Below, one piece after another: positions 34,930 through 56,049 of a stretch of 64,000 nt of DNA; within the stretch, counting starts at the first letter, position 1; each line of letters begins with the position of its first letter. The translations under genes and the position numbers were made by a program. The DNA is from Candidatus Terasakiella magnetica. GTDB taxonomy: Bacteria; Pseudomonadota; Alphaproteobacteria; Rhodospirillales; Terasakiellaceae. The notes under the pieces are model-generated. The model ran no database searches. It saw only the letters and a list, made by a program, of their open reading frames with translations, and was not told the DNA's origin. Where the stretch lies: the NCBI RefSeq assembly GCF_900093605.1, contig NZ_FLYE01000023.1:1-64000 (forward strand), written 5' to 3'.

Positions 34930-34986
34930 TAAAACTCTGTCACACTTTTATCTTCGCATGATTTCGATTACGTTGATATAATCGCA
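34930..34986 (+). promoter_or_regulatory. Promoter of the two-component operon with 10-bp repeats
   Basis: CTGTAAAACT-CTGTCACACT (34927-34946) are adjacent 10-bp copies of the island motif, and GATATAAT (about 34974-34981) is a good -10 close to ATG 34990. Suggests autoregulation by the response regulator. Confidence 0.45.
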
Positions 34987-34989
34987 CCT

Positions 34990-35712
34990 ATGAGTACTTC
35001 ACAGCACATACTTGTCGTAGACGACAACAAAGAAATTCAAGATTTGGTTTCCCGTTTCCTGACTAAGGACGGGTATCGTGTTTCTACAGCCGGCGACGGT
35101 CGGGAAATGAAAAAGATCATAGCGGATGCCCGTATCGATCTTATTCTTCTAGACCTAATGTTACCGGGTGATGATGGCTTAACGCTTTGTCGTGATATTA
35201 GGGCAGATTCCAATATTCCAATTATTATGCTGACAGCTAAAGGTGAAGAAATTGATCGTGTGATTGGGCTTGAGATGGGGGCTGATGATTACATCGCCAA
35301 ACCATTCGGAACCCGTGAACTTCTTGCACGTATAAAAGCCGTATTACGACGAACGGGTGATGTGGCTAGCCCCGCAGCGGCACCGGACACACCCAGTAAT
35401 TATCTGTTTGATGAATGGAAACTTGATACAGCGAAACGTGAATTAAATTCTAAAGATGATGTCATTGTTCCTCTAAGCACAGGTGAGTTTACCTTGCTTA
35501 TGGCCCTGGTCGAACGGCCACAACGCGTTTTAAATAGAGACCAGCTACTGGATATTGCACGCGGGCGCGCATCAGTTGCTTTTGACCGCAGTATTGACAC
35601 GCAAGTCAGTCGGTTGAGACGCAAGATAGAAAAAGATGCCAAAAACCCTGAACTCATTAAAACAATCTGGGGTGGTGGATATGTCTTCACACCTGAAGTA
35701 ACAAAAGAATGA
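34990..35712 (+). CDS. OmpR-family response regulator
   Basis: A 240-residue regulator. Receiver domain 1-125: acidic pair DD (12-13), phospho-acceptor Asp in LLDLMLPGDDG, Thr in MLTAKG, Lys in YIAKPFG. The C-terminal winged helix (about 140-235) has PLSTGEFTLLMALVERPQRVL and VDTQVSRLRRKIE-like DTQVSRLRRKIEKD. Genes around it deal with copper and periplasmic redox, so a CusR/CopR-like role is likely. Four-base overlap with the kinase gene. Confidence 0.85.
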   Translation: MSTSQHILVVDDNKEIQDLVSRFLTKDGYRVSTAGDGREMKKIIADARIDLILLDLMLPGDDGLTLCRDIRADSNIPIIMLTAKGEEIDRVIGLEMGADDYIAKPFGTRELLARIKAVLRRTGDVASPAAAPDTPSNYLFDEWKLDTAKRELNSKDDVIVPLSTGEFTLLMALVERPQRVLNRDQLLDIARGRASVAFDRSIDTQVSRLRRKIEKDAKNPELIKTIWGGGYVFTPEVTKE

Positions 35713-37103
35713 GAAAGTTTCTCCCTAAGACATTAACATCTCAAACGATTTGGGTTTTGCTTATCGGATTAAGTGTCTCTCACTTTTTGAGCATGGTGAT
35801 TTATTCAGGTGATCGCACTGAATCTCTTTCCATGCTGGGTGGTCGCAATATGGCGCAACGTATCGCCAGTGTTTCCCATGTCATTATTGAAACACCATCA
35901 GAATGGAGAGGCCGAATTGTTGCAGCATTAAACGAACCAACATTCCGGGTTTCCATCAGCCCTGAAAGCACGTTGGTCAATCAACCAGATGAAGGCGAAC
36001 AACTTGCATTATTAAAACGTTTTTTGCGCTTTAAAATTGGCTTGTCGACTGAAACCCCAATGTCTGTACAACTGTTTGAGAAACCACATGACGGTGGTCT
36101 TTTGAGTCAATTCAATCCCAACCAGTGGATGCACATGCGAATGATGAACCAAATGCATGGCATATCGGCACATCAATCCTTGCGGGTTTCATTCACTCTT
36201 CCTGATGGTAAATGGCTGAATTTTGCGACTGACATTCCTGAAAGTAACCCATTCTGGTCACCAACATCACTTATGTCACTTATATCAATGGCTGTTGCCG
36301 TTATCGTACTGTCCATCTGGGTTGTTCGTCGGCTGACTGTTCCTTTGCGTTCCTTTGCACATGCAGCGAGGCAATTAGGTAAGGACGTAAAGGCAGAGCC
36401 AATGTTAGAAACGGGACCATTGGAAGTACAAGAAGCGGCTAAGGCTTTTAATGAAATGCAGGGACGATTGCAGCGTCTGATTGAGAACAGAACACAAATG
36501 CTGGCTGCCATTTCACATGACTTGCGGACGCCCATTACATTAATGCGATTACGCTCTGAATTAGTCGAAGATGAGACAGACCGCCAAAAAATGCTCGAAA
36601 CTTTAGATGATATGGAACATATGATCTCACTGACCTTGGAGTTTGCAAAACAAGAGTCAGAAAATGAAGAGCGTAGAAATGTTGATATCGCGGCACTTGT
36701 TGAAAGTATATGTGATGATATGGAGGACACGGGCAAAGACATCTCTTTGGAACGCGGTGAACAGATCCTCTATGAGTGTGCTCTTGTCGGCATGAAGCGC
36801 GTTGTAAACAACCTGATATCGAATGCAATTAAATATGGCGATTGCGCAAGGGTCTCAATAGGCGCGAATGACAATGAAATTGAAATTGTAATCACTGATA
36901 AAGGCCCTGGTATTCCGGAAGACCAACTTGAGAAAGTCTTACAACCTTTCTATCGGTGTGAAGCATCACGCAATAGAGATACAGGGGGTGTTGGCCTTGG
37001 TCTAAGCATTGCTCAATCAATTATTGAGGCTCATGGTGGAGAACTACTTCTGGGTAATCGAAAAGAGGGAGGCCTTGAGGCCAAAGTACTGCTCCCCCGT
37101 TAA
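35709..37103 (+). CDS. Sensor histidine kinase
   Basis: 464 residues, EnvZ/CusS-like. Two membrane helices (about 10-32 and 190-212) enclose a periplasmic sensor domain of about 155 residues that contains a Met/His-rich stretch WMHMRMMNQMHGISAHQ, a plausible copper-binding patch. HAMP 212-260, H-box AAISHDLRTPITLM, N-box NNLISNAIKYGD, G1/G2 DKGPGIPE and GGVGLGLSIAQ. Phosphorylates the adjacent regulator. Confidence 0.85.
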   Translation: MRKFLPKTLTSQTIWVLLIGLSVSHFLSMVIYSGDRTESLSMLGGRNMAQRIASVSHVIIETPSEWRGRIVAALNEPTFRVSISPESTLVNQPDEGEQLALLKRFLRFKIGLSTETPMSVQLFEKPHDGGLLSQFNPNQWMHMRMMNQMHGISAHQSLRVSFTLPDGKWLNFATDIPESNPFWSPTSLMSLISMAVAVIVLSIWVVRRLTVPLRSFAHAARQLGKDVKAEPMLETGPLEVQEAAKAFNEMQGRLQRLIENRTQMLAAISHDLRTPITLMRLRSELVEDETDRQKMLETLDDMEHMISLTLEFAKQESENEERRNVDIAALVESICDDMEDTGKDISLERGEQILYECALVGMKRVVNNLISNAIKYGDCARVSIGANDNEIEIVITDKGPGIPEDQLEKVLQPFYRCEASRNRDTGGVGLGLSIAQSIIEAHGGELLLGNRKEGGLEAKVLLPR

Positions 37104-37891: not shown

Positions 37892-37895
37892 AAAA

Positions 37896-38610: not shown

Positions 38611-38631
38611 ACTAACAGCGGCTTATTGCCA

Positions 38632-39216: not shown

Positions 39217-39251
39217 GACATTATTTCCAGTAATATTTTAGTTTACACTTC

Positions 39252-40163
39252 TTATTGAGCAATCTTGTTTAAAGGCTTTGCACCCCTGTACTTGGCACCG
39301 ATAGAAGCATAGCAATTCGCAATGGTGTCATAATTATATTGCATCATATCAACGTATAAATCTGGCCCTGCAGGCAGGCTCAAGCCGAATGATTTTAATG
39401 TTCCAACTTGAACCTGTTCTTTATTAATGGCGAGTGACATGTTCTTTTGGCTCAACCCTTCTTCAACAAAGAAACAAATCTTATCAAAATTATTTAATGC
39501 GGCTCGCATCTTAAAGATATTTGCTGTTTGTGCGTTTTCTGACGGATGCTCAGACAAAAAACCAAGGGACTTGAAGGCGTATGATTGTTCAAAATATTGA
39601 TGTGTATCGTGATACATCCAAGAAATACCCGCAGCAATACCTCTGAACCCAAATTCAAACTTTCGATCTAAAGCAGTGATCTTGTATTTTAAAGTGTTTC
39701 GGTTTTTTTTGAAAATTTTCTCATTCTTGGGGTCAAGGGTAACTATTTTTTCATAAAGAGAATCAAGGAAAACCTCAGCATTTCGAACATCCAGCCACAT
39801 ATAGGGGTCACGCAAATTATCGATTTTCCGATCTGGTAAAACTTTGAACTCGGTATCACTGAGCATTTCATAATCTTTTATTTCAGGCGTCAAAATCTCT
39901 GCGACACTTTTCTCAAGCTCCGGTCCCATCCAGACGACCAAATCAGCACGTTTCAACAATGCCTGATCTTCCGGCGATGGTGAGTAATCGTATGGTGTTA
40001 CATCTTTCATCAATAAGATCGGTTCTCCGGCTCCTTTCATCAATGCACTAAGAAAAGAGTGAATAGGCTTGATCGTTGCAACAACTTCCACAGGTTTTGC
40101 AATCGCCATTGAAGTCAGTGAAAAGATAGCTATCCAGAATGTTAAAAATAACCGCCAAAACAT
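39252..40163 (-). CDS. ZnuA-like metal-binding periplasmic protein with altered ligands
   Basis: 303 residues with a 22-residue signal peptide (SLTSMAIAKP). The fold of zinc ABC-transporter binding proteins is clear: ADLVVWMGPELEKSV, GISWMYHDTHQYF, TLKSFGLSLPAGPDLYVDMM. Of the three zinc ligands of E. coli ZnuA, two positions are Tyr here (TPYDYSP for PHDYAL; DPYMWLDV for MHLW), while the third, in YHDTHQYF, remains His. No permease or ATPase genes are nearby. Possibly it binds another metal or acts as a chaperone with the SCO protein next to it. Promoter region resembles the one near 41000. Confidence 0.75.
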   Translation of the reverse strand: MFWRLFLTFWIAIFSLTSMAIAKPVEVVATIKPIHSFLSALMKGAGEPILLMKDVTPYDYSPSPEDQALLKRADLVVWMGPELEKSVAEILTPEIKDYEMLSDTEFKVLPDRKIDNLRDPYMWLDVRNAEVFLDSLYEKIVTLDPKNEKIFKKNRNTLKYKITALDRKFEFGFRGIAAGISWMYHDTHQYFEQSYAFKSLGFLSEHPSENAQTANIFKMRAALNNFDKICFFVEEGLSQKNMSLAINKEQVQVGTLKSFGLSLPAGPDLYVDMMQYNYDTIANCYASIGAKYRGAKPLNKIAQ

Positions 40164-40220
40164 ATTTGTTCCCCTTGATTTTGGATTTCTGATCTATTGT
40201 AGCCCGTCATTTGAAGAGCA

Positions 40221-40234
40221 TTGACATTAGTCAG
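40221..40234. promoter_or_regulatory. CRP/FNR-family-type box
   Basis: TTGACATTAGTCAG is a TTGAC-N4-GTCAR dyad 58 bases upstream of the ZnuA-like start and sits in a block also found at about 40966-41040. Confidence 0.35.
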
Positions 40235-40428
40235 ATGTAAGTAAGATATAAATCTAATTCCATTATCCATTCATTCAAAACTATCGTTACTAAGCCCATG
40301 TCAAAAGACAGGCTAAACTCCAAGATGGAAACTGTTTGAAAAAAAAGCTATGAAAGTGAAAATGGAAACGACTCTTGATACCGGATGCACGCCTATAAAG
40401 GCCGTGACTTTATTTGAAGTGACGGTTA

Positions 40429-40872
40429 TCAAATTATGAGGATGGTCGTTTTCTTTGTGTTGAGGGCATTATAATGTGGAAAAGAGCTTTCTAGGGGAGC
40501 CTCCACATAAATTGCTTTAGGTGAGCCAGATAAAAGGTCGGCAATAGTATAAAGTTTAATTTTATCACTTGGTAATAAACTCAAGGAATGTGTTGAGTTT
40601 GCATTACCTTCAGGAGTTATGCGCTTATCACGGTGTAATTCCTTTGAAGCAATCACTGAAGTAGAATTACCACCATCAAAGAGCAGGACAGAATGTAATG
40701 AATCTTGTTGATGTTCCTGCATGGTTATTCCATGCATTGCCTTCTCAAAATAAATATCGCCATTCTGCTCAAAACAATTAGCAAAAGCTACATCCGCACC
40801 AACGCCAATTACCAGATATACTGATAGAGCAATTAATGCCGTTACCTTTTTTATTTTGGCAGATAAACTCAT
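40429..40872 (-). CDS. Hypothetical exported protein
   Basis: 147 residues with an N-terminal hydrophobic signal ending VGADVAFANC. The mature part has one Cys, several His (KAMHGITMQEHQQD, STHSLSLLPSD) and no known motif. Lies alone between two copies of a similar promoter block. Possibly metal-related from its location only. Confidence 0.45.
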   Translation of the reverse strand: MSLSAKIKKVTALIALSVYLVIGVGADVAFANCFEQNGDIYFEKAMHGITMQEHQQDSLHSVLLFDGGNSTSVIASKELHRDKRITPEGNANSTHSLSLLPSDKIKLYTIADLLSGSPKAIYVEAPLESSFPHYNALNTKKTTILII

Positions 40873-41023
40873 GCGTCATAAATCCAATTACTGATTTGGT
40901 GTTCACTAAATAAGAAATGTGGCAAAAAATTATTTTGACATCTTATTTTGAGAATACCTGCAGCATCATATTCGTTCCCCTTTATTCAAGGTCGGATTAT
41001 TGCAGTCCATCATATGAAGAGCA

Positions 41024-41037
41024 TTGACGTAGGTCAG
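41024..41037. promoter_or_regulatory. CRP/FNR-family-type box, second copy
   Basis: TTGACGTAGGTCAG, same layout as 40221-40234 within a similar block of about 75 bp. It lies about 150 bases upstream of the 40872 gene and touches the stop of the diheme cytochrome. Confidence 0.35.
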
Positions 41038-41039: not shown

Positions 41040-41951
41040 TTAACTTCCAGATTTATCCTGACCTGGTTCATTGGTAGCCGTTTTCTTGTTATCCGGTTTC
41101 CCTAGATAGGCTGCAATGGCTTTCAGGTCTGCTTCAGTCATTTTGCCTGTTGTATTGGCAATCACTTTCCCCATAGAGCCGCCAAGGAAATCACCTTCTG
41201 GTGTCATGCCCATTTGTAGGCCAAAGACTGTGTCCGTATGGCTCCACTTAGAAAACTTGCTCTCGTCACTGTTTAGCAAACTTGGAATTTTCTCGCCTTC
41301 CGGACTCTTAGGTTCTCCCGCTAACAGGTTTTCCGTATCCAGTCCGCCAAGTAAATTTCTTGGCGAATGACATTCCACACAGTGACTTGGACCGTTGACC
41401 AAATAAGCCCCTCTGTTCCATTCAGCACTCTTGGATGGATCTTGCTTGAATGGGCTGTCGTCGAAGAATAATGCCTTCCAAACCATCATGCCTTCTCGCA
41501 CATTAAATGGAAATGGGACATCATGTTCTGGGGCAGCTTTTGCAACAGGTGGAACAGTATCCAAATAGGCTTTTAGGTCAACCAAGTCCTGGCGTGTCAT
41601 TTTCGCATATGAGGTATAAGGGAAAGCAGGGAAATAATGTGATCCATCCGGGGAGACCCCTTTCGTCATTGCTTGAATGAATTGTTCAGTATCCCAGCTA
41701 CCGATGCCAAATTCTTTATCTGACGTTATATTTGGGGTGTAGAAAGTTCCAAATGGGGTGGGAAGACCTAGACCGCCGGCAAGTTCTTTCCCCTTGTACT
41801 TCTTATCTGTATGGCAAGAAACGCACCCCCCAATGTCCATGACATATTTTCCACGCTTTACAGAATCAGCTTGATCATTACCTGCATAAGCCTGGGAAGA
41901 GACAAGAAGAGTTAAAGATAAAACACTGGTCAAATATGAAGATGTACGCAT
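41040..41951 (-). CDS. Diheme cytochrome c
   Basis: 303 residues, exported (signal ending SSQAYAGN). Two haem sites, GGCVSCHTDKK (about 43-47) and SHCVECHSPRN (about 190-194); TPNITSDKEFGIGSWD and FPAFPYTSYAKMTRQDLVDL are typical of the diheme cytochromes that serve membrane dehydrogenases. Last gene of an eight-gene periplasmic redox operon. Donor and acceptor unknown. Confidence 0.83.
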   Translation of the reverse strand: MRTSSYLTSVLSLTLLVSSQAYAGNDQADSVKRGKYVMDIGGCVSCHTDKKYKGKELAGGLGLPTPFGTFYTPNITSDKEFGIGSWDTEQFIQAMTKGVSPDGSHYFPAFPYTSYAKMTRQDLVDLKAYLDTVPPVAKAAPEHDVPFPFNVREGMMVWKALFFDDSPFKQDPSKSAEWNRGAYLVNGPSHCVECHSPRNLLGGLDTENLLAGEPKSPEGEKIPSLLNSDESKFSKWSHTDTVFGLQMGMTPEGDFLGGSMGKVIANTTGKMTEADLKAIAAYLGKPDNKKTATNEPGQDKSGS

Positions 41952-41975
41952 TGGGGGGCTCCGTTCTTTTTATAA

Positions 41976-42446
41976 TTAATCTTTTTTCACACGAAAATCT
42001 GTGTGGCAGGTTGAACAAACTTTTCCTGTTTTCGCAAATTGCATCATCACGGCACGCTTATCACCAGTCGTGGCGACTTCGCCAAGTTTTGTGGCTTCCG
42101 TTTCCAGATCGTTACTCAATTGTGCAAAGCGGTCCCAATCTTCCCAGATTGTTGGCAGGGCCTCTGTTGGTTTATCCATTGAGCCTTTTGGGAAAAGGGC
42201 ATTGATCTTAGTGGAATGCTCAGCCATGGATTTTGCGGATGTTTCAATCACTGCGGCATCAAAAGTAGTTTCCCCTTTAACCATAGCGGCAACTGCTTTC
42301 ATGTTTTTGCCAATAGCACTCATCAAATCCATGCGTTCTTTGACAATACCCATCGCACCACCATGGGCGAGTACTGCAGTTGTTGCTGATACAACGATGA
42401 CAGCACTCAAGCCGGCAACTTTTGCTTTAATCGAAAGTTTCTTCAT
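41976..42446 (-). CDS. Cytochrome c' (class II)
   Basis: 156 residues with signal ending VLAHGG. Four-helix bundle type: RMDLMSAIGKNMKAVAAMVK near the N-terminus and the haem site KVCSTCHTDFR near the C-terminus. Such cytochromes bind NO and can take part in stress protection. Good AAGGAAATAAA leader. Confidence 0.82.
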   Translation of the reverse strand: MKKLSIKAKVAGLSAVIVVSATTAVLAHGGAMGIVKERMDLMSAIGKNMKAVAAMVKGETTFDAAVIETSAKSMAEHSTKINALFPKGSMDKPTEALPTIWEDWDRFAQLSNDLETEATKLGEVATTGDKRAVMMQFAKTGKVCSTCHTDFRVKKD

Positions 42447-42473
42447 TTTATTTCCTTCATTATTTTAGAGGGG

Positions 42474-42908
42474 TTACATTTTATGAGCTTGATATCGGAT
42501 GCCATTTTCAACCTGGACCTCACGAATAAAATTAATAACATTCTCCATGTCATATCTGGATACCTGAGGCTGTGCCGGCATATTACCAAATTTCCAATGA
42601 TGGCTTGTGACACCAGAAACTGCTGCACGGTAAAAGGATTCATCACCATGATGACCAGGATTGTAGATGTTATGGATTAAAGGTGGGCCTTGTTCAGAAC
42701 CTGCGCCATTTTCACCATGGCAAGCTGCACAGTTCTCGGAAAATGTTCTTTTACCCTTTACCGCTTTTGCGGACAGTTTTCCTGGCATTTCTACATCGAC
42801 AACAGTAGCGTCACTAGAACCTGACATCATATTGTTTACAACAACACCGATACCGCCGATCAACAGTCCGACAATTACAATTTTAGGAATTTGTTCTGAA
42901 AAACTCAT
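42474..42908 (-). CDS. Membrane-anchored monoheme cytochrome c
   Basis: One N-terminal helix (IVIVGLLIGGIGVVVNNMM) anchors a class I domain with SENCAACHGENG. ATG 42908 has GAG upstream; GTG 42920 is the alternative and overlaps the previous stop. Met/His-rich C-terminus (HHWKFGNMPAQPQVSRYDM) contains the likely axial Met. Confidence 0.78.
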   Translation of the reverse strand: MSFSEQIPKIVIVGLLIGGIGVVVNNMMSGSSDATVVDVEMPGKLSAKAVKGKRTFSENCAACHGENGAGSEQGPPLIHNIYNPGHHGDESFYRAAVSGVTSHHWKFGNMPAQPQVSRYDMENVINFIREVQVENGIRYQAHKM

Positions 42909-42916
42909 TAATAGTC

Positions 42917-43696
42917 TCACTCTTTCTTTTTTGAATTTCTGGTCCGCTCAACAGCCGCTTTCAATGTATTCAAATCTGCTGCACCGCGAATAATCATATT
43001 TCCAATAATGAAGCCTGGTGTTCCAGTAATATCGAGTTGTTGTGCAAGGGCATAGTTTCGTTGGACGATACTGTTGATAAGATCTTCATGCTCATTCATA
43101 TCTTGTTTAAGCTGAGGAATATCAAGCCCTGCTTTTTCAGCAATCTTGAAAACCTTTTCCTTTGAGTATTTCCCCCGGCTGCGCATTAGAAGATCACTAA
43201 AAACCGTATATTTGTCCTGATAGTTTGACGCTAACGCGGCTTTTGCTGCAAAAACAGATTCAGGGCCTAAGATTGGGAATTCTTTATATACATATCGAAT
43301 ATTTCCATCTTCTTTAACGAGCTTTAAAACCGTGTCATGGACACGTTTACAGTAACCGCAACGATAATCAAAAAACTCAACAAGAGTGACATCCCCATTT
43401 GGATTTCCACCGACGGGATCGTCTGGGTGAAAATAGATTTCATTGGCTTTGGATACCAACACCTCATCGATACGCTGTTTTGTTGCTGTTTGTTTTTTCA
43501 GTTCCAAGAGCTGTAAGGCTTCCAAGATTATTTCTGGTTGCTGCAGTATTGTCTCTTTCACAAGCTTCCGTACTTCTGCCTTTTCTTTATCATTCAAACC
43601 CTGAGAGTGAGCGTCATTGATCGTAATTAGACTGAGCATAAAAATGACGCTCAAGAATATAATTTGGTAGGTGCTTTTCATTGTTAACGACATCAT
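42917..43696 (-). CDS. DsbA-family disulfide oxidoreductase (BdbD/ScsC-like)
   Basis: 259 residues with signal (SVIFMLSLITINDAHSQG). Helical N-terminal extension (about 30-85), then thioredoxin fold with FFDYRCGYCKRVHDT (CxxC) and cis-Pro in DITGTPGFIIGN. ScsC-like proteins protect or load copper proteins. In this operon it may fold the multiheme partners or the Cys-rich propeller protein. Confidence 0.8.
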   Translation of the reverse strand: MMSLTMKSTYQIIFLSVIFMLSLITINDAHSQGLNDKEKAEVRKLVKETILQQPEIILEALQLLELKKQTATKQRIDEVLVSKANEIYFHPDDPVGGNPNGDVTLVEFFDYRCGYCKRVHDTVLKLVKEDGNIRYVYKEFPILGPESVFAAKAALASNYQDKYTVFSDLLMRSRGKYSKEKVFKIAEKAGLDIPQLKQDMNEHEDLINSIVQRNYALAQQLDITGTPGFIIGNMIIRGAADLNTLKAAVERTRNSKKKE

Positions 43697-43699
43697 AAA

Positions 43700-44683
43700 T
43701 CAATCCGTATGGGTGGCGCTTAACACCATCTGATGGCCTTCACCCGATATGGCGATTTCATCGACAGGTTTGAAGGTTTGAGCATCGATCACCCAGATTT
43801 TTGGAGATTTACTGCTGGAAACAAAAACCTTGCCTGTCCCAGTTAACGCTTCAAGGTGATAAGGAGAGGGCGCAAGTTGAATTTCTGTTCGTGTTTCATT
43901 TTCAATATCGATTTTTACAGCAACACCGCTCTTTTTACTGGTCGCATAAATCGACTGTCCATCTTCTGACAGGTCCAAACCATGCGCACCCTTACCGATA
44001 GAAAATGATCGTGTAACTTTTCCAGATGCAATATCTGTTTCAGAGACTGTTCCAGCTTTTGCATTTACGCTGTAAAGTTTCTTCTGGTCTTTAGATAACG
44101 CGAGATGTTCTGGCGTAGGGCCGCCATCCAAGGTTCGTACAACCTTCCATGTCACGGTATCTACCTCAGAAATTGTTCCGCTACCTGTATTAGAAATGAA
44201 TGCACGTCCACTGTCTTTTGTGAAAACAGTGTAGTTGGGTCCGTTGCCCGTTTTTAGGAAAATATCATTTGGGGAGCCATCGAGGTCCGTAATGCTCACC
44301 CCACCTAATGTCGGGTGTGTCGATACAACATAACGCCCTGTAGGTTTAATCGCCTGATGATGAACCATACCCGGCAGCGAGCGCGTCGACATGATGTGGC
44401 CATGCTCAGGATGAATGACAAAGAGTGTACCTTCCATCTTACCCATCTCGTTCTTTTTTGCGGCAAGGCTAGCTGTTATCACATATTCACCATCCGGTGT
44501 GATCGCTAAGGCATGGGGGTTCCTGATACCGTCAAACTCATTTACGACCTGGTTGTTTTCACTATCAATAACCAGCACTTTATTGGCGCTTCCGGCGGCG
44601 ACATAAATAAACGGTTCGGCAAAGGCTGAGATAGACATAATAGCTGTTGCAGCAACAGCAATTGAGAAAAGTGTTTTTTGCAT
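43700..44683 (-). CDS. YncE-like beta-propeller protein
   Basis: About 327 residues with a signal peptide ending SISAFAEP. Repeated blades such as NPHALAITPDGEYVITASL, TPEHLALSKDQKKLYSVNA and GAHGLDLSEDGQSIYATSKK form a seven-blade YVTN-type propeller. ATG 44683 has GGAG nine bases upstream; 44707 is an in-frame alternative. A non-haem scaffold, perhaps binding metal or docking cytochromes. Confidence 0.78.
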   Translation of the reverse strand: MQKTLFSIAVAATAIMSISAFAEPFIYVAAGSANKVLVIDSENNQVVNEFDGIRNPHALAITPDGEYVITASLAAKKNEMGKMEGTLFVIHPEHGHIMSTRSLPGMVHHQAIKPTGRYVVSTHPTLGGVSITDLDGSPNDIFLKTGNGPNYTVFTKDSGRAFISNTGSGTISEVDTVTWKVVRTLDGGPTPEHLALSKDQKKLYSVNAKAGTVSETDIASGKVTRSFSIGKGAHGLDLSEDGQSIYATSKKSGVAVKIDIENETRTEIQLAPSPYHLEALTGTGKVFVSSSKSPKIWVIDAQTFKPVDEIAISGEGHQMVLSATHTD

Positions 44684-44703
44684 TTTTATATTCTCCATAA
44701 TTC

Positions 44704-45036
44704 TCATGACCCAAAGTTCTCACGTAAGTATTGAATGAGTTCACGAGATTGTTCCGTTGAGAATGGATCGGCTCCTCCAAATGCTGGCATCAAAACTGTG
44801 CCATCAGCCTCTTCCACACCTTCCATGATAATTTTTGTAAGGATGTTTTCGTCTTTTCCTAAGCGGTTCTGATCGCCTGTGAAATCAGGAATTTCGGCAC
44901 TCATACCGCTTCCATCAAAGCCATGACAGGCGGCACAAAACTCAGAATATGTTGCACTAGCATCAAACTCTTGTGCTTGAGACGCCGAAGCGAAAACAGT
45001 CATTGTCATAACGGTAATGATGAGGAAAAGACGCAT
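44704..45036 (-). CDS. Small periplasmic cytochrome c
   Basis: About 110 residues, signal ending SASQAQEF, haem site SEFCAACHGFDGSG, and Met ligand in VLMPAFGG. ATG 45036 with GAGGAAG upstream is preferred to GTG 45039. Soluble class I electron carrier. Confidence 0.82.
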   Translation of the reverse strand: MRLFLIITVMTMTVFASASQAQEFDASATYSEFCAACHGFDGSGMSAEIPDFTGDQNRLGKDENILTKIIMEGVEEADGTVLMPAFGGADPFSTEQSRELIQYLRENFGS

Positions 45037-45049
45037 CACTGTTTCTTCC

Positions 45050-46282
45050 TCAATGCATGCAGCTCATATGTCGTGGACCCTGACACGACAAGCTGTTGAA
45101 GTTCCACAGACTTTTAATGTACGCGACAAGACTTTTTGCGTCCTCTTCACTTACATCATGTTCTTTCCAGGCAATCATACGTTCATTGCGCTCAACACCG
45201 TTCAGGATCGTTGACATAATCTGATCATCTGAATGATGCCAGGCATGCATTGTATCGTTGAGCGAAGGTGCTAATGGCAAGCCCTCTTCATCAACAGCTC
45301 TTGGGTCTGCGGGGTTTTCACCCGCGCCCTTTTCACCATGACAGGCAACACAATTATCTTCATATAGTGTTTTACCTGCTTTAATCCGGTCAATTGAAGC
45401 ATATTGATTGCCTTCAAAACTTCCCCATGTTTCACCAGCATCTTTACTTATCATCATCGCACCAGTGTCTGAGACACCATAAATGTGCTTTGGGTTTCGC
45501 GGATCAATGGTTGCGTTTAGCAGGGCGCGTTTCTGAAATTCTTTAGCATGGCGTTTCCATTTTAAATCTTTTTCAGAGGCTGTGACATAACCGTAATCAT
45601 AGATAAAGGCATGTATCTGCCCCTTATTTGTAACTTGCAAAGAAGCGACAGGTTTATCGACGGGGCCAATGTTTTTCCACGTCTTAGCCCCATCCTCACT
45701 TTTGAAAAGACCATTGAAAGTACCTGCATAGACCGTCTTAGGCTTTAAGGGGGAAACCGCAATTTCAAACATACGTTCCCCTTGAATAGGGCTCACAACT
45801 GTCCAGGTCTTACCGCCATCTGCACTGGCTTGTATATTTTCATCAACCCCATAAATAATACGCGGGGAAACCGCACTGATCGCCATGGCATAGAAAGAGG
45901 CTATACCGTTTGCATCGTCACCTAATTTTTGCCAGTTCCGGCCCCCATCTTTTGAGCTAACAACACCCATTTTTTCCGTTTTGCTTACATAGCCGCTTGC
46001 AAATAAGGTATTCGGATTATTGGGATGGGATATCAATTCCATGAAATAGCCTGTGTTTTTATTTAACTTTTTGACCAAGCCATTTTCTCTAACTGTGAAA
46101 ACACCATGAGGTGTTGCCACGGTAAATTTTTCTTTATCTTTTGGGTTGAACACAATTCCACTGACATCTTTCAACTGGTGTAGAAAAATGTCCTGTTTTG
46201 GATCTTCTGCCTGCGCGATTGATACAGAAAGAAATCCTCCGGCTAATACTGCTGATAATTTTACAAATGCCCTCAAATTCAC
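45050..46282 (-). CDS. Sortilin/BNR-type propeller fused to cytochrome c
   Basis: 410 residues with signal ending SIAQAEDP. Residues 30-285 form a propeller with Asp-box repeats (SSKDGGRNWQKLG, SADGGKTWTVVS, SEDGAKTWKNIG, SKDAGETWGSFE). Residues 295-395 are a cytochrome c domain with EDNCVACHGEKGAG. The last 16 residues, FNSLSCQGPRHMSCMH, hold two Cys, two Met and two His, a likely metal site. The combination suggests an extracytoplasmic redox enzyme or copper handling protein. Substrate unknown. Confidence 0.8.
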   Translation of the reverse strand: MNLRAFVKLSAVLAGGFLSVSIAQAEDPKQDIFLHQLKDVSGIVFNPKDKEKFTVATPHGVFTVRENGLVKKLNKNTGYFMELISHPNNPNTLFASGYVSKTEKMGVVSSKDGGRNWQKLGDDANGIASFYAMAISAVSPRIIYGVDENIQASADGGKTWTVVSPIQGERMFEIAVSPLKPKTVYAGTFNGLFKSEDGAKTWKNIGPVDKPVASLQVTNKGQIHAFIYDYGYVTASEKDLKWKRHAKEFQKRALLNATIDPRNPKHIYGVSDTGAMMISKDAGETWGSFEGNQYASIDRIKAGKTLYEDNCVACHGEKGAGENPADPRAVDEEGLPLAPSLNDTMHAWHHSDDQIMSTILNGVERNERMIAWKEHDVSEEDAKSLVAYIKSLWNFNSLSCQGPRHMSCMH

Positions 46283-46503
46283 GAGTGCTCTCCCCCATTT
46301 TCCCCAGGTTCAATACTGTCAGCCATAACCTTGATACATTTACGAACTTGTTCAATGTCGCATCCAACCAGCTCTGCATATCCAAGTGTTTCGGTCATGG
46401 CTTCGCGTAATTCCTCTAACGATTCAATAACGATGGCACGGGCAATAAGTGGTACCTCTTGTTTCACCTTGGAAACTGAATTTAAGTTAACAATTTCACC
46501 CAT
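46279..46503 (-). CDS. Small hypothetical protein, first gene of cytochrome operon
   Basis: 74 residues, acidic, no signal peptide. VPLIARAIVIESLEELREAM and DIEQVRKCIKVMADSI are helices. ATGA overlap with the propeller-cytochrome gene shows co-transcription. Not recognised; could be a cytoplasmic regulator. Confidence 0.55.
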   Translation of the reverse strand: MGEIVNLNSVSKVKQEVPLIARAIVIESLEELREAMTETLGYAELVGCDIEQVRKCIKVMADSIEPGENGGEHS

Positions 46504-46535: not shown

Positions 46536-46622
46536 AATAGACGTGTCCGAAGTATGTCTAAAACACACAAGTAAATGACAAAGTGTGGCAAAAGTGGGAG
46601 TTGACAAACTTTGTCACAAAAT
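46536..46622 (-). promoter_or_regulatory. Promoter of the cytochrome/propeller operon with island repeats
   Basis: AATGACAAAG-TGTGGCAAAA (46574-46593) are 10-bp direct repeats; TTGACAAACTTTGTCACAA (46601-46619) is an additional dyad. On the minus strand TTGTCA-N17-GACATA (46552-46580) is a promoter-like core shared with other island promoters. Confidence 0.5.
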
Positions 46623-46638: not shown

Positions 46639-47520
46639 CTATGCGTTTCCATGGCAAATTTGTCTGTATGTGACATGGCGTTGAATGAAAGCTGAAATAC
46701 TCTCCAGAGCACGAACCTCTAATTGGCGAACTCGTTCACTGGAAATACCAAAACGTTGCCCCAATTCTTTCAGTGAAGATGGTTCTTCAGCCAAGTATCT
46801 TGCTTTCACAATTTCCCTATCCCTACCTTCAAGGCGACGCAAAGCAGCTTTTATTGCCTTTTTCTTTATCGCTGTTTCTTGACGTACCACTAAAACTTCT
46901 TCTTGATTTGGCCCTCCATCTTCCAAGAGGTCTTGATGCTGGGAATAGGTGTCATCTCCGACGGGGGCGTTTAACGACTGATCCCGACCAAATAGACGTT
47001 TATTGATTTGCTGTACATCTTCAACACTGGTATCAACTTTTGCTGCAATTCTCTGGGCTTGATCTTTGCTCAGTTCACCATTGTCGATAATTTCAAGCTC
47101 CCGTTTCACTCGTCTCAACGAGAAAAACAGTTTCTTTTGTGCATTCACTGTCCCCAAAGGAACCAGTGACCAGTTCTTTAAAATGAAATCATTTACAGAT
47201 GCTTTGATCCACCACATAGCATAAGTAGAAAGCCTGACTTCCTTAGATAGATCGAATTTATGAAGTGCTTTGAGCAAACCGATATTCCCTTCTGCAATCA
47301 AATCAGCAACAGGCAATCCATAGCCTTTTGCATCCATCGCAATTTTAACAACCAGACGCAAATGACTGGTGATAAGGGTTTCTGCTGCTGATGGACATTG
47401 GGCATGAAGAAAGTCAGATAAATATTTCTTTTCCTCTTCAGCAGATAGAATGGGATAGTCCCATGCTTTTCTCAAATAAGCTTGAAGCTCATCTGTATTC
47501 TGGGGGGTATATATGCTCAT
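46639..47520 (-). CDS. RpoH-like (sigma-32 type) sigma factor
   Basis: About 293 residues. Region 2 SHLRLVVKIAMDAKGYGLPV, DLIAEGNIGLLKALHKFD, STYAMWWIKASVNDFIL; RpoH box QKKLFFSLRRVKRE, which separates heat-shock sigma factors from RpoD; region 4 LKELGQRFGISSERVRQLEV. ATG 47520 fits the family start (MSIYTPQN); 47532 is in-frame. Start overlaps the thioredoxin gene by about 30 bases. As a heat-shock sigma inside a copper island it may be a paralogue dedicated to envelope or metal stress. I cannot see anti-sigma control. Confidence 0.85.
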   Translation of the reverse strand: MSIYTPQNTDELQAYLRKAWDYPILSAEEEKKYLSDFLHAQCPSAAETLITSHLRLVVKIAMDAKGYGLPVADLIAEGNIGLLKALHKFDLSKEVRLSTYAMWWIKASVNDFILKNWSLVPLGTVNAQKKLFFSLRRVKRELEIIDNGELSKDQAQRIAAKVDTSVEDVQQINKRLFGRDQSLNAPVGDDTYSQHQDLLEDGGPNQEEVLVVRQETAIKKKAIKAALRRLEGRDREIVKARYLAEEPSSLKELGQRFGISSERVRQLEVRALESISAFIQRHVTYRQICHGNA

Positions 47521-48577: not shown

Positions 48578-48642
48578 TCTATTCCTCCCTCACTTGGTGA
48601 CAGATTATGTCAATCCCTGTACCTGTCACACTTTGCTACAAT
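48578..48642 (-). promoter_or_regulatory. Island promoter with CTGTCACACTT repeats
   Basis: Adjacent TGTCACACTT and TGCTACAATT (48624-48643) are 10-bp repeats. TGTCTATTCC...TTGGTGACAGATT...TCAAT (48580-48613) closely matches 62484-62519. On the minus strand CTGTCA-N18-GACACA is the likely core, driving DUF2933, thioredoxin and sigma factor. The rest of 48421-48751 holds only this and the next terminator. Confidence 0.45.
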
Positions 48643-49725: not shown

Positions 49726-52700
49726 TCAGGAATCTGCTTCTTGAGCTTCCAGTTTTTTCAGTTTCTTTTCCGCTTTTTTCATCTGTGCTCGTTTCCAAAT
49801 AACAAACACAGCGGGAATAATCAGAAGAGCAAGTGCGGTCGCACTGATCATGCCGCCAACCATTGGCGCAGCGATACGGCGCATCACTTCAGAACCGGTA
49901 CCGGTACCAAACATGATCGGCAACAGCCCGGCAACAACAACTGAGAAGGTCATCATAATCGGTCGAACACGCATCAAAGCCCCTTCAATGATTGACTTAT
50001 TCAAATCTTCATAAGTGATGCGACGGTCTGGAATAGCATCCATACATTTATCAAGGGCCTGATTAAGATAAACCAACATCAATACACCGATCTCTACAGC
50101 CACACCGGCCAAAGCGATGAAGCCGACACCTACGGCTACAGAGAAGTTGTACCCCAAGAGATAGAGTAACCAAACGCCACCTACGAGAGCGAATGGCAAA
50201 GTTCCCATGATGATGCCAACTTCGATCAGGTTTTTAAAGTTTAGGAAGAGAAGAACAACGATAATGGCAATCGTGACTGGAACCACAACAGACAATTTCT
50301 GCTTAGCCCGTTCCATAAACTCATACTGTCCAGACCATGCAATCGAGTAACCTGCTGGTAACTTGATCTGATCGGCAACAGCTTTCTTTGCATCAACAAC
50401 ATAAGAACCGAGATCACGATCTGCTATATCAACATAAATCCAACCATTTAGGCGTGCGTTTTCTGACCGGATCATACCGGGACCACCTACAACTTTAACA
50501 TTGGCAACCTCAGCAAGAGGAATTTGTGCCCCATTAGGCGTCACAATTGGTAAAGTCTTCACTTGTTCAACAGAATCACGAACATCACGAGGATACCTCA
50601 AATTAACAGGGTAGCGTTCACGCCCTTCAACAGTTCGTGTGACAGTCATCCCGCCAATTGCTGTTTTAACAACATCCTGAACATCTTTAATATTCAAGCC
50701 GTAACGCGCAGCTGCTGCACGATCAATATCAACATTAACGTAGCGCCCACCAGTTACACGTTCCGCATATACAGATGCTGTACCTGGAACATTTTTAACG
50801 ACCTTTTCGATTTCTTCACCAACTTTGGCAATAACGTCAAGATCAGGTCCCGCGACTTTGATACCGACAGGTGTTTTAATACCTGTTGCTAACATATCAA
50901 TACGGTTTTTAATCGGCATGATCCATGTGTTGGTCAAGCTGGGTACATTAACGATTTGATTAAGTTCTTTTTTCAAACCGTCAATGGTCATGCCTTCACG
51001 CCACTGATCCTTCGGCTTCAATTTAATCGTTGTTTCGATCATGGTTAGTGGTGCTGGATCAGTCGCACTGTCTGCACGTCCCGCTTTACCATACACAGTT
51101 TCCACCTCCGGAATGGTGCGGATCAGCTTGTTTGTTTGTTGAACAACTTCCGCAACCTTGCCAACTGAAATAGCTGGAAACGCACTAGGCATATAAAGTA
51201 AATCACCTTCATCCAACTCAGGCATAAATTCACTACCCAAGTTTTTAAGTGGCCAAACAGCTGTCATTGCCAATGCCAAACAGACAATAATAAGTGTTTT
51301 TGGGAAACGCAAAGCCACATTGATAAAGGGACGATACATTGCAATAAGTGCGCGGTTTACTGGGTTTTTGTGTTCATGAACAACATGACCACGAATAAAA
51401 TAACCCATTAGAACTGGTACAAGCGTAATTGATAATATCGCCGCAGCACCCATCGCATATGTTTTCGTGAAGGCAAGTGGTGAGAACAGTCGCCCTTCTT
51501 GAGCCTCCAAAGTGAAAACTGGCACAAAGCTTAGAGTAATGATGACAAGAGAGAAGAATAATGGTGCACCAACTTCACTTGCCGCGTCTGCAATAACCCG
51601 CCAACGGTTTTCGTCAGTGATTTTGATTCTCTCCATATGCTTATGTACATTCTCGATCATTACAATGGCCGCGTCGACCATCGCACCAATTGCAATTGCA
51701 ATACCACCAAGTGACATGATATTTGCGTTAATACCTTGTTGTCCCATGATGACAAAGGCTGCAATAATACCAACTGGCAGACTGGCTACGATTACAAGGG
51801 CTGAACGCACATGAAAGAGGAAAATTGCGCAAACAAGTGCAACAACGATAAATTCTTCTAAGAGCTTTTCTTTTAGTGTTTCAACTGCACGCTCGATCAA
51901 ACCCGAACGGTCATATGTTTCAACAATTTCCACACCTTCAGGCAAACCCTTTTTAAGTTCTTCTATTTTTGCTTTAGCAGCCTCAATCGTTGTTAGGGCG
52001 TTCTCACCCCAACGCATGATAATTACGCCACCAACAGCTTCACCTTCTCCATTTAATTCACCAATCCCACGACGTAGTTGTGGCCCTACGCGAATGTCGG
52101 CTATATCGCCCATTACAATCGGTGTGCCCGTTGATGTTGCCCCAAGTGGTATGGAACGTAGGTCTTCTTCAGATTGAATATAACCGGTTGCACGAACCAT
52201 ATATTCAGCTTCGGCCATTTCGATGACAGAACCACCAACTTCTTGGTTGCCGTTTTTAATGGCCATACGCACTTTTGATAATGGAATACCAAAGGCACGC
52301 AAACGATCAGGATCGACAATCACTTGATATTGTTTGACCATTCCACCAATTGTGGCGACCTCAGAGACACCAGGCACAGTCTGGAGCTCATATTTTAAAA
52401 ACCAATCTTGGATGGAACGTAATTGAGATAAATCGTGTTTTCCAGATTTATCGGTTAATGCATATTGATAGACCCAGCCCACACCTGTTGCATCAGGGCC
52501 TAAAGCAGCTCGAGCTTCTGGTGGCAGATTTGGAGCAACCTGGCTGAGATATTCTAAAACTCGAGACCTTGCCCAATAGAGATCAGTTCCATCTTCAAAA
52601 ATGATGTAAACATAAGAATCACCAAAGAAAGAATACCCACGGACATTGGTTGCACCAGGCACCGATAACATTGCAGTTGTTAACGGATATGTTACTTGGT

Positions 52701-52887
52701 CTTCTACAACTTGGGGCGCTTGTCCGGGATAACTTGTTTTAATAATAACCTGAACATCAGAAAGGTCAGGGATCGCATCCAGTGGGGTTTTCATCACCGA
52801 ATAGGAGCCCCATCCGACGAACAACACAGTCATAAGAATAACAATCAACCTGTTATTAATTGACCAATGAATAATATTGGAGATCAT
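49726..52887 (-). CDS. cusA: CusA heavy-metal efflux RND pump
   Basis: 1053 residues, inner membrane, twelve helices and two large periplasmic domains. GIAIAIGAMVDAAIVMIENV contains the proton-relay Asp of the HME-RND family; PELDEGDLLYMPSAFPAIS and VYGKAGRADSATDPAPL are family signatures. Exports Cu(I)/Ag(I) from the periplasm or cytoplasm through CusC. Four-base overlap with cusB. Confidence 0.9.
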   Translation of the reverse strand: MISNIIHWSINNRLIVILMTVLFVGWGSYSVMKTPLDAIPDLSDVQVIIKTSYPGQAPQVVEDQVTYPLTTAMLSVPGATNVRGYSFFGDSYVYIIFEDGTDLYWARSRVLEYLSQVAPNLPPEARAALGPDATGVGWVYQYALTDKSGKHDLSQLRSIQDWFLKYELQTVPGVSEVATIGGMVKQYQVIVDPDRLRAFGIPLSKVRMAIKNGNQEVGGSVIEMAEAEYMVRATGYIQSEEDLRSIPLGATSTGTPIVMGDIADIRVGPQLRRGIGELNGEGEAVGGVIIMRWGENALTTIEAAKAKIEELKKGLPEGVEIVETYDRSGLIERAVETLKEKLLEEFIVVALVCAIFLFHVRSALVIVASLPVGIIAAFVIMGQQGINANIMSLGGIAIAIGAMVDAAIVMIENVHKHMERIKITDENRWRVIADAASEVGAPLFFSLVIITLSFVPVFTLEAQEGRLFSPLAFTKTYAMGAAAILSITLVPVLMGYFIRGHVVHEHKNPVNRALIAMYRPFINVALRFPKTLIIVCLALAMTAVWPLKNLGSEFMPELDEGDLLYMPSAFPAISVGKVAEVVQQTNKLIRTIPEVETVYGKAGRADSATDPAPLTMIETTIKLKPKDQWREGMTIDGLKKELNQIVNVPSLTNTWIMPIKNRIDMLATGIKTPVGIKVAGPDLDVIAKVGEEIEKVVKNVPGTASVYAERVTGGRYVNVDIDRAAAARYGLNIKDVQDVVKTAIGGMTVTRTVEGRERYPVNLRYPRDVRDSVEQVKTLPIVTPNGAQIPLAEVANVKVVGGPGMIRSENARLNGWIYVDIADRDLGSYVVDAKKAVADQIKLPAGYSIAWSGQYEFMERAKQKLSVVVPVTIAIIVVLLFLNFKNLIEVGIIMGTLPFALVGGVWLLYLLGYNFSVAVGVGFIALAGVAVEIGVLMLVYLNQALDKCMDAIPDRRITYEDLNKSIIEGALMRVRPIMMTFSVVVAGLLPIMFGTGTGSEVMRRIAAPMVGGMISATALALLIIPAVFVIWKRAQMKKAEKKLKKLEAQEADS

Positions 52888-54617
52888 TGGCCGCTACCCT
52901 CTTCCAAAACTTCAACACTGCCAAGGCCATACATACCTTCTGCATCTTTACTCAAACCAAAACGAATTTGATCACCGGCTTTTAAGGCTGCAATATCAAA
53001 ATCACCGAGTTTGACAAAATCCATTTCCATTTCAGGCCAACCAATCTCAGGAATAGGGGCATGTTTCATATTGATGATACCGTTTTCAACGGAAACATTA
53101 TTGATGACACCTTCACCATAAGCTTCGATCTTTGGCCCTGCCATCGCCATAATTTTGGAAATGCCCCACATGCCCTCTTCATCTTGGGCAAGTGTGATAT
53201 GAACAGAGCCATTTTCTTTAAGGCCCTCTAGGGATGCATCATGCAGGAGTTTGAAATCCATGGTCATGGCGGGCCAGCCAATTTCCGGAATGGGCTCATG
53301 GGTCAAGTTGACCATGCCATGATCAGCCATAAGTGTATTTACCTTGGCCATTGTAGATGGTGCTGGCTTTGATTCTTCGCCCTCAGTAGATTCATCCGTA
53401 TCTGAAAGTCGTTGAATGCTGGCAGACAGACTTGCTTCTGAATCAATAAGGAACTGACCAGACGTCACTACAGTATCGTTTTCAGAAATGCCTTTTTTAA
53501 TTTCAATACGCTGATTGGCTTCGATACCACTGATAACTTCAACAGATTTGAAACGGCCTTCCCCCAGAGACAGGATCAGGCGGTCTCTTTTTCCTGAACG
53601 AATGACAGCTTCACGCGGAACCGTTAGAACGTCATCTTTCCCAACGCCAGAAATACTGACTTTGGCATACATATTCGGTTTGAGTTCTTCATTCGGATTG
53701 TCAAACTTCAGACGCACTTTGAGCGTGCGTGCCTTGGCATCAAGGGTCGGATAGATGTATTCGACTTTACCTTCCCAATGCTTACCTGGTGCATAAGACA
53801 AGTTCATTCTTGCCTCTTGGCCGACTTCTACAGCTTGAGCCTGGTCTTCAAAAACATCTGCAAGCAACCATACCGATGAAAGGTCGGCTAATGTAAAAGT
53901 GCTTTTCTTTTGGGTAATGTACATGCCATCACGTACATTCATAGAAGACACCACACCATCCTGTGGAGCGCGAACTTTAACCAGACGCTGGATTTTACGA
54001 TCTTTGCGAAGCGCATTAATCTGAGGGCGACCAAAATCTAAGGCACGTAACCTTTCTGCTGAAGCCGCAATGAGTCCTTTGCGTCCCGTCTGTAGAGCTT
54101 GAAGATATTCGGCTTGGGCATTGGCCAAATCAGGTGAGTAATATTCAAAAAGCAACTGTCCCCGTTTGACACGTTCACCAACTGATTTTACAGCCAGTTT
54201 TTCGATCCAACCATCCGAGCGAACATGGACTTGTTGAATTTTACTTTCATCATAATCAAGATAGCCAACCGTTTCGATGTTACGTGACAAATCCAACCGT
54301 TCTACGGATGCAGTGCGCACACCGATGTTATTTACAACAGACGGTTTGATTTTTATGGCACCGGAATCGTCATCATTATTTTCCTGGCCTTCATAAACAG
54401 GGATCAAATCCATCCCCATTGGGGATTTCCCCGGATTATCGCTGCGAAAATTGGGGTCCATCGGCGCCACCCAATAAAGAACTTTTTTCTCAGTACTTTC
54501 GCTTGATGACATGGAGCTGGCTGAACCACCGAGCATTCCTGATTGCTGGGCACCATACATGCCGATTGCGCCCAATAATCCAGCGGATAGGGCGATGATC
54601 ACTGTTTTAGAACTCAC
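52884..54617 (-). CDS. cusB: CusB membrane-fusion protein with two C-terminal CusF domains
   Basis: 577 residues, far longer than E. coli CusB (about 400). Order: N-terminal anchor (1-30), heavy-metal-binding domain YWVAPMDPNFRSDNPGKSPM (48-75), barrel-sandwich and beta-barrel domains (about 95-385), acidic linker, then two CusF-type OB domains: THEPIPEIGWPAMTMDF (about 430) and KHAPIPEIGWPEMEMDF (about 525), each with His-x7-Trp-x2-Met-x-Met. The fused domains may feed copper directly into the pump. Overlaps cusA and cusC by four bases. Confidence 0.88.
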   Translation of the reverse strand: MSSKTVIIALSAGLLGAIGMYGAQQSGMLGGSASSMSSSESTEKKVLYWVAPMDPNFRSDNPGKSPMGMDLIPVYEGQENNDDDSGAIKIKPSVVNNIGVRTASVERLDLSRNIETVGYLDYDESKIQQVHVRSDGWIEKLAVKSVGERVKRGQLLFEYYSPDLANAQAEYLQALQTGRKGLIAASAERLRALDFGRPQINALRKDRKIQRLVKVRAPQDGVVSSMNVRDGMYITQKKSTFTLADLSSVWLLADVFEDQAQAVEVGQEARMNLSYAPGKHWEGKVEYIYPTLDAKARTLKVRLKFDNPNEELKPNMYAKVSISGVGKDDVLTVPREAVIRSGKRDRLILSLGEGRFKSVEVISGIEANQRIEIKKGISENDTVVTSGQFLIDSEASLSASIQRLSDTDESTEGEESKPAPSTMAKVNTLMADHGMVNLTHEPIPEIGWPAMTMDFKLLHDASLEGLKENGSVHITLAQDEEGMWGISKIMAMAGPKIEAYGEGVINNVSVENGIINMKHAPIPEIGWPEMEMDFVKLGDFDIAALKAGDQIRFGLSKDAEGMYGLGSVEVLEEGSGQ

Positions 54618-55870
54618 AGTGTTTCTCCTTGAAGATATTGAAGGCGGACGAGGTATTTTGAACTATCGATTTCGAGGCGAAGTCGTTTCAATTGTGCCTC
54701 CAGTTCAGAAACACGAGCACGCACCAGAGCGTCAAAATCAGAAGCCTCATATTGATATGCTGTGATTGCAGCTGAGACGTTATCTTTGGCACGTTTTAAA
54801 ACTTGCTCATCGAAATTTAGTAAACGTTGTTGTGTGCGTTCATATGCCGCTGTTTCAATATGGTATTGACGGGTTAATTCACGTAATTGCTCTTCTGCAC
54901 GAAGGCGAGCGGCGGCAGCCTGATGTTTACGTGCACTCAGTTTGCGGTCCTGGCGAGGTCCGGTAAAAAATGGCAAACTCATAGAAAACTTCAGACTGAC
55001 TAAATCAGATCGCGTATCTCCCATAGGCGTATCTTGTCGATAACCATAAGAAGCACCGACACCAAATTTTGGCCCATAATCAGCTTCGGCCAGTTTTACC
55101 TTCCGCTCCGACACAGCCTCTTTCTCATTAAACACCTTTAAAGTTGGGTGATTTTTTACAGCTTGTAGAAAGTCATCTTCTTTAAAAGGTTTTGCAAAAA
55201 CGGGAGTGTTCTCAGGAAGTGTTCGCGCTGCACTATTTTCGCCTGTCCATTTACTCAGATTTGCTTTTGCAATATCCAAATTTTTGATTGCGCCAAGAGA
55301 CCGGTCATCTAGCAAACTGGACGCAAGTTCTGCGGCGATTACACGTTGTGCACTTATTCGTCCCGAACTGTAAATTGCCTGGACTGAACGGATATCGTCT
55401 TCTACGAGGTCTTTGTAATCCTCTAGAATGAGCAGAGCTTTCTTCCAATAAATCGCATCCAGCCAAGACAAACGCACAGCTTTCAGTGAAAGAAGCTTCC
55501 GGGCTTCTTCATTTGCTCTATCAACACGTGAAAGTGCTGTTGCAATTTCGGTCTTGGCATCCAGAACATCAAAATTCGGGATTTGTTGGGTGATACCGAC
55601 CTGAAACTGGGTCATTGCTTCTTGATCAGTATTGAATGTATCAGTCGGTAAATTCAGCGCCCCTAAACTGATTTTGGGGTCAGGTAATTGCCCAGCTGAA
55701 ACTGCAAGGTCTTCTTGTGCCAATGCACTGCTTTGGAATTTTCGTGAAAGAGGATCAGTTTCCAAGGTCAGCTTTTCAGCTTCTGACAATGTCAACTCCT
55801 GTGCGAAAGCACCAGACGACATAAGGCTTAACGCAAGGGCGCTAACGGCTAAGGCCCGAATTTTATTCAT
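54614..55870 (-). CDS. cusC: CusC-like outer-membrane efflux protein (TolC family)
   Basis: About 418 residues from ATG 55870 with signal ending SSGAFAQEL. Two repeats of the TolC fold with long helices (ALAQEDLAVSAGQLPDPKIS, ELEAQLKRLRLEIDSSKY). A longer frame from 55948 lacks a signal at its N-terminus and is less likely. First gene of cusCBAF. Confidence 0.85.
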   Translation of the reverse strand: MNKIRALAVSALALSLMSSGAFAQELTLSEAEKLTLETDPLSRKFQSSALAQEDLAVSAGQLPDPKISLGALNLPTDTFNTDQEAMTQFQVGITQQIPNFDVLDAKTEIATALSRVDRANEEARKLLSLKAVRLSWLDAIYWKKALLILEDYKDLVEDDIRSVQAIYSSGRISAQRVIAAELASSLLDDRSLGAIKNLDIAKANLSKWTGENSAARTLPENTPVFAKPFKEDDFLQAVKNHPTLKVFNEKEAVSERKVKLAEADYGPKFGVGASYGYRQDTPMGDTRSDLVSLKFSMSLPFFTGPRQDRKLSARKHQAAAARLRAEEQLRELTRQYHIETAAYERTQQRLLNFDEQVLKRAKDNVSAAITAYQYEASDFDALVRARVSELEAQLKRLRLEIDSSKYLVRLQYLQGETL

Positions 55871-55959
55871 TGACCTACACCCCATTGAGAAACACCAGTT
55901 TTCAACATTCTTCTTCCTTTCATTCACCAAAAGCCTTTTGCAGCGCAAAAAACTACGAT

Positions 55960-56049
55960 GGGGAATGTGCCTAAAGAATGTGGCTGACGTATTTCAAAAG
56001 TGGGTCAAGTTGTGCCAAAGTGTAACAAAGTGTGTCAAAGTGGATAAAG
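55960..56049 (-). promoter_or_regulatory. cus promoter with five 10-bp direct repeats
   Basis: Five consecutive decamers at 56000-56049: GTGGGTCAAG, TTGTGCCAAA, GTGTAACAAA, GTGTGTCAAA, GTGGATAAAG. A 10-bp period is one helical turn, as with OmpR-family regulators binding head to tail. The cusC gene starts 130 bases further along. Confidence 0.6.

Follow-up and report, generated by a model that had tools for sequence, protein, structure and literature searches.

The locus analysed here raises the question of what a compact operon of cytochromes, propeller proteins and a thiol oxidoreductase does inside a copper island. The window, that is, the whole stretch of DNA that was analysed, comprises the first 64,000 nucleotides of contig NZ_FLYE01000023.1 of the marine bacterium Candidatus Terasakiella magnetica. 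The operon occupies its minus strand from 46503 to 41040, and all eight open reading frames (ORFs; g1 to g8) lie there at intergenic gaps of -4 to +27 bp, which confirms an initial annotation of eight tightly packed genes. We propose that the operon may encode an electron pathway of the periplasm for copper stress: the product of g4 would bind a copper centre and hand on electrons, whose source is probably Cu(I), to the cytochromes; this reading, drawn from sequence, is in our view quite possible though not quite probable. The new part appears to be the seven-histidine propeller family of g4, and the operon itself appears to be one version of a broader repertoire found on plasmids.

The protein on which the proposal turns is g4 (43700..44683), a YncE/YVTN seven-bladed propeller of 327 amino acids and a putative copper-cluster protein without a CuA domain; an ATG at 44683 fits its homologues and its signal peptide, while the ORF list begins at 44707. 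The g4 alignment was searched against 385 genomes of the class at E <= 1e-40, and a second genome sample was also searched. Matches at this threshold were found in 7 of the 385 genomes, the window's own included, and all of them lie below 1e-125, thus marking g4 as a distinct family. In an alignment of g4 with its Terasakiella pusilla counterpart and 15 further sequences of 33-38% identity, exactly seven histidines are invariant in 17 of 17 sequences (57, 108, 109, 193, 234, 276 and 317); two further copper-plasmid relatives at 26-27% identity retain all seven, making 19 of 19 family members in total. Histidine makes up 3.4% of residues, and its occurrence at seven of the 37 conserved columns (35 strict) gives a binomial p of 2e-4, which serves as a guide only, because the columns are non-independent. 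Control propellers have few of these residues, with 0 of 7 in a PQQ-type (pyrroloquinoline quinone) protein and 3 of 7 in two D1-like proteins.

By the repeat pattern, each of the seven histidines stands at the start of an inner strand, in six of the seven blades, and on the third inner strand P-N-Y is invariant in place of histidine (P-E-Y in two distant members). An AlphaFold 2 (AF2) model of g4 has the propeller fold, and its strands begin at the histidine sites in blades 1, 4, 5 and 6. H123 was considered as an eighth ligand and set aside, being conserved in only 14 of the 17. Many family members have an extra DEHAAHH loop, and no g4 relative was found on viral contigs by sequence or alignment. 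As seven conserved histidines hold the copper clusters of enzymes such as nitrous-oxide reductase, g4 is probably a copper protein that has so far gone unrecognised and that works with cytochromes.

Which known copper propeller does g4 resemble? The closest pattern is that of L-NosZ (lactonase-type, clade III, NF052460), also seven-bladed, whose histidines by blade run H, HH, none (P-x-Y), H, H, H, H, in an order identical to that of g4. In one L-NosZ sequence (L075) the series is H88, H142-H143, PDY, H228, H271, H331 and H389, and its spacing differs from g4 mainly by two insertions. However, L-NosZ has 588 amino acids and a C-terminal CuA cupredoxin domain (YCQHFCGPLHLEM), whereas g4 ends after the propeller, and g4 reaches only 63 bits against the L-NosZ model (cut-off 700) and 12-14 bits against the NosZ models (cut-off 625). 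In canonical NosZ, seven histidines from six of the seven blades hold CuZ, with one blade giving two, and the C-terminal strand, by which the propeller is closed, supplies one of the CuZ ligands (PMC11573801). NosZ has no match in the genome at E <= 1e-80, and neither NosL nor NosD has a match there, which makes it unlikely that the Nos machinery builds a sulfide-bridged CuZ in g4. A role of g4 as a nitrous oxide (N2O) reductase was thus ruled out as unlikely, given the missing CuA domain, NosL and NosD.

A copper site like that of thiocyanate dehydrogenase (TcDH) seems a better analogy for g4 than a sulfide-bridged CuZ. TcDH has seven active-site histidines and three copper ions but no CuA, and it gives its electrons to cytochrome c (PMC6504805, PMC9456337). 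Like g4, it is a seven-histidine propeller without CuA, although the sequence match is weak. The two also differ: TcDH has its HH doublet in the first histidine-bearing blade (in NosZ and TcDH the adjacent pair comes one blade earlier than in g4), a Tat (twin-arginine translocation) signal, a longer chain and a known substrate, whereas g4 looks Sec-exported. Further active-site residues of TcDH are Lys103, Gln156, Glu288, Asp314, Asp529 and Arg544 (PMC6504805); at the position of Asp529, g4 has Gln after the last histidine, TcDH being compared here by description and not by alignment. Matches from structure libraries were dropped as a discriminator for g4, as they return propeller folds only, and the absence of a given chain among them rules nothing out.

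The gene context of g4 also bears on its role. Across 17 g4 loci, of which those on plasmids were partly picked for copper genes, the stretch examined contains a g6-type cytochrome in 11, a CopA ATPase in 11 and a Rieske protein in 8. Eight loci taken from the genome samples form a fairer set, and copper-resistance markers accompany g4 in seven of these, the eighth being L092, described below. A g6-type cytochrome c is the commonest neighbour of g4 in other loci, and this constant partnership favours electron exchange over storage.

Domains of g1 to g8 were assigned by Pfam and NCBIfam profile searches. The first gene, g1 (46279..46503), encodes 74 amino acids with no Pfam or NCBIfam family and no signal peptide, and it is found in Terasakiella only. 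It is followed by g2 (45050..46282), a single protein that fuses a BNR/F510_1955-like propeller to a C-terminal mono-heme cytochrome c with one CxxCH. Against the F510_1955 family model NF045728, g2 scores 129 bits, under the curated cut-off of 175, and is thus a related but divergent, fused form of this family. Its C-terminal tail, CQGxRHMxCMH, is unchanged in five homologues, and such a Cys/His/Met tail was not found in the separate cytochromes of relatives. Both g3 (44704..45039) and g6 (42474..42920) are mono-heme cytochromes c, g7 (41976..42446) is a cytochrome c' (PF01322, 117.8 bits; C-terminal heme motif CSTCH at residue 144 of 156), and g8 (41040..41951) is a diheme cytochrome c. The remaining gene, g5 (42917..43696), encodes a ScsC-like DsbA family thiol oxidoreductase with a CGYC motif; its ScsC_N domain (PF18312) scores 29 bits against a cut-off of 25.8, and its DSBA domain 73.8 bits. 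With six CxxCH motifs in total, the four cytochromes and the propeller-cytochrome fusion of the initial annotation were correctly recognised, as were the YncE-type propeller and the DsbA-like protein. A multicopper oxidase (PcoA/CopA) is part of pco/cop copper-resistance operons but is absent from this one, and the only clear one in the genome lies on another contig (C44).

The gene set is conserved among close relatives. T. pusilla has all eight genes at 94-100% identity per gene, and T. brassicae keeps g1, g2, g6, g7 and g8 at 67-83% identity in an operon from which g3, g4 and g5 are absent, thus excluding a chance arrangement. Among six Terasakiella species compared, g2 occurs in three and g4 in two, which identifies the operon as accessory DNA.

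Beyond the genus, we followed the suggestion to look for the same set in other metal islands, and homologues of g2, g4, g5, g6, g7 and g8 do recur in copper-resistance regions, both plasmid and chromosomal. Two genomes from another family have the whole g2 fusion (47-48% identity) and g6 nearby. In copper regions of Phyllobacterium, Halomonas and Azospirillum, the propeller and the cytochrome are separate adjoining genes, and in Pontibrevibacter DUF411 stands between the two. An F510_1955 protein and a c-type cytochrome thus form a pair with the same two domains as g2, fused in Terasakiella and extended there by the CQGxRHMxCMH tail. The g6-g7-g8 order is kept in Salipiger (pPABY3) and Aestuarium, where a multicopper oxidase, a cytochrome and a DsbA follow; this cluster shares with the Terasakiella operon three cytochromes in the same order and a g5-type DsbA. 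In Martelella pMM259, described only as bearing copper export operons (PMC5613091), the order is kept as far as the multicopper oxidase. The Terasakiella operon differs from the copper-plasmid cluster in that the multicopper oxidase is missing and g1-g4 are present instead; indeed, g2 and g4 stand in the operon position that the multicopper oxidase has beside the same cytochromes in relatives. In a second alphaproteobacterial copper-plasmid group, the neighbours of a YncE-type propeller are a cytochrome, a Rieske protein and a CopA ATPase. Several copper plasmids (L045, L047, L060 and L062) also come with genes of their own for cytochrome c maturation (CcmF, DsbE and CcmI), some together with lgt and DsbD-like genes.

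Since related gene groups occur in Rhodobacterales, Hyphomicrobiales and Rhodospirillales, the Terasakiella operon is a local recombined assortment of a widespread copper-plasmid repertoire and is not unique. The related groups are annotated gene by gene only; neither the gene set nor g4 is described in the searchable open-access literature, and the copper-plasmid cluster is likewise uncharacterised there. The initial annotation had seen here a candidate for an undescribed system that matches no known complex. This stands for characterised complexes and for the literature searched, but not as a claim that the set is peculiar to this island, because the gene groups that it recombines exist elsewhere and the operon is a variant of their repertoire. 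The annotation's idea of a metal-stress electron path is supported for copper, by the homologues in copper regions and the seven-histidine set of g4, but not for mercury, for which there are only mer genes near some plasmid relatives.

How might such a pathway work? Copper stress would turn on the cus efflux genes and the operon together. The seven histidines of g4, predicted to meet at the blade hub, would then bind a multinuclear copper centre, which would draw electrons from a substrate, most likely Cu(I) accumulating in the periplasm, or from another donor. From g4 the electrons could move to g6, g3 and the g2 fusion, then through g7/g8, and from there to the respiratory chain or oxidases. 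In this process, g5 may keep thiols, such as those of the g2 Cys tail and the apo-cytochromes, in the right redox state, and the g2 tail may hold a second copper. A further step, which we put forward as a tentative idea and consider somewhat doubtful, is that g4 founds a family of CuA-less seven-histidine copper-cluster propellers acting as Cu(I):cytochrome c oxidoreductases, by which Cu(I) would be detoxified without a multicopper oxidase and its electrons would enter respiration. Very few known enzymes (NosZ, L-NosZ and thiocyanate dehydrogenase) contain a copper-cluster propeller, and the g4 family, whose members on copper-resistance plasmids carry no annotation beyond "YncE family protein", would broaden this class. 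It would also account for the recurring cytochromes in copper islands, and a respiration-linked route of Cu(I) detoxification would become directly testable.

Several observations weigh against the electron pathway. Profile comparison ranks generic YVTN propellers above L-NosZ for g4, with register slips between repeats; for this reason the profile alignment was dropped as proof of NosZ kinship, only the blade-ordered histidines were used, and common descent with NosZ is not established. The AF2 model has an overall pLDDT (predicted local distance difference test) of 53, with a weak first half, and is reliable in the second half only. In T. brassicae the operon persists although g3, g4 and g5 are missing, and g4 is thus dispensable for the rest. 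Finally, one locus (L092, 9950-12439) has g4 outside a copper region and without copper genes; an isoprenylcysteine-methyltransferase-like gene and a cytochrome c lie directly downstream of g4 there, 5-oxoprolinase-type genes adjoin, and the arrangement is possibly a minimal g4 module.

Other roles of g4 and its neighbours need to be considered. It is conceivable, but rather unlikely, that g4 soaks up copper in the periplasm as a sponge, or acts as a chaperone that delivers it to efflux pumps or enzymes, without being redox-active, the cytochromes serving a separate purpose. The zinc metallochaperone AztD (6cmk), which is among the weak structural and sequence matches, is likewise a periplasmic metal-binding propeller encoded in a metal operon; histidines in a propeller funnel would suit storage as well, and g4 adjoins CopA ATPases, with the DEHAAHH loop in many members. 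However, AztD serves zinc uptake, whereas the setting of g4 is copper; a fixed seven-histidine pattern with one silent blade fits catalytic copper clusters and not a loose ring, and g4 has its most regular companion, a cytochrome c, even at L092, the sole locus without copper genes. That same locus, consisting of g4 and a cytochrome, can be taken to suggest that g4, as a copper enzyme, acts on a different substrate, such as a small molecule containing sulfur or nitrogen, and lies in the island because of the copper supply genes present there; TcDH genes are likewise flanked by cop or cus genes (PMC6504805). We consider this very improbable, as g4 lies mostly in complete resistance regions, with CopA, CueR or multicopper oxidase genes and no recurring catabolic genes, and N2O reduction is unlikely for the reasons given above.

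One target of copper in the periplasm is the assembly of cytochrome c, and the cytochromes, Ccm-like genes and propellers could repair or replace copper-damaged electron carriers and the cytochrome assembly itself, the g2 propeller being a YCF48-like assembly factor. Related islands hold CcmF, CcmI, DsbE, DsbD, SCO and PCuAC genes, and g2 weakly matches Ycf48. On the other hand, no Ccm genes are in the Terasakiella operon, and repair leaves the seven-histidine set of g4 and the Cys/His/Met tail of g2 unexplained; we judge it decidedly unlikely, and retain copper-stress electron transfer as the preferred reading.

The setting of the operon fits a response to copper. It sits in a mobile, integrase-flanked copper-resistance island of a 3.68 Mb genome close to T. 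pusilla. Besides CusABC with CusF domains and a CusRS-type pair, this island encodes an integrase at 33.6 kb, DsbA/DsbB, SCO, a ZnuA-like protein and a sigma-32-like factor. The likely regulator is the CusRS/CopRS-type response regulator and sensor kinase (34990..37103, plus strand), and the efflux genes of the CusA, CusB (with CusF domains) and CusC type lie at 49726..55948 on the minus strand. A motif, TGNCACACTTT, has four exact copies in the 64 kb against 0.18 expected, and four were reached in 0 of 100 shuffles. It precedes g1 (46580..46590, minus strand), the response regulator gene (34938..34948, plus strand), the cusC-like gene (56027..56037, minus strand) and, in opposite orientation, the gene at 48132-48401 (48624..48634, plus strand). 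Its presence upstream of both the operon and the cus genes suggests co-regulation with the copper genes, which supports the earlier proposal of a shared island promoter. A second candidate box, TTGACNTNNGTCA, was rejected, its frequency being not above chance.

Several other features of the island were noted. The gene at 48132-48401 encodes an 89-amino-acid protein related to DUF2933 genes on other copper plasmids (L046, L047, L060 and L062; 36-41% identity). A complete sigma-32 (RpoH)-like gene (46639-47532) lies directly upstream of the operon; T. pusilla has it, and T. brassicae gives a diverged or partial match alone (46% over about 70 residues, L035 9398). The left border of the island has two phage-type integrase genes (30260-31339 and 33584-34870). 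Between g8 and the two-component genes, a block at 37185-40872 holds a cation-efflux fragment, DsbB, a second DsbA, SCO, the ZnuA-like protein and an orphan 147-amino-acid protein. This block is missing from T. pusilla and T. brassicae, where the two-component genes directly adjoin g8 in convergent orientation, and it is thus probably an insertion. The repeat GTCAATGCTCTTCA occurs at 40200-40235 and 41008-41036, upstream of the ZnuA-like gene and the gene of the 147-amino-acid protein, and common regulation of these two genes is possible.

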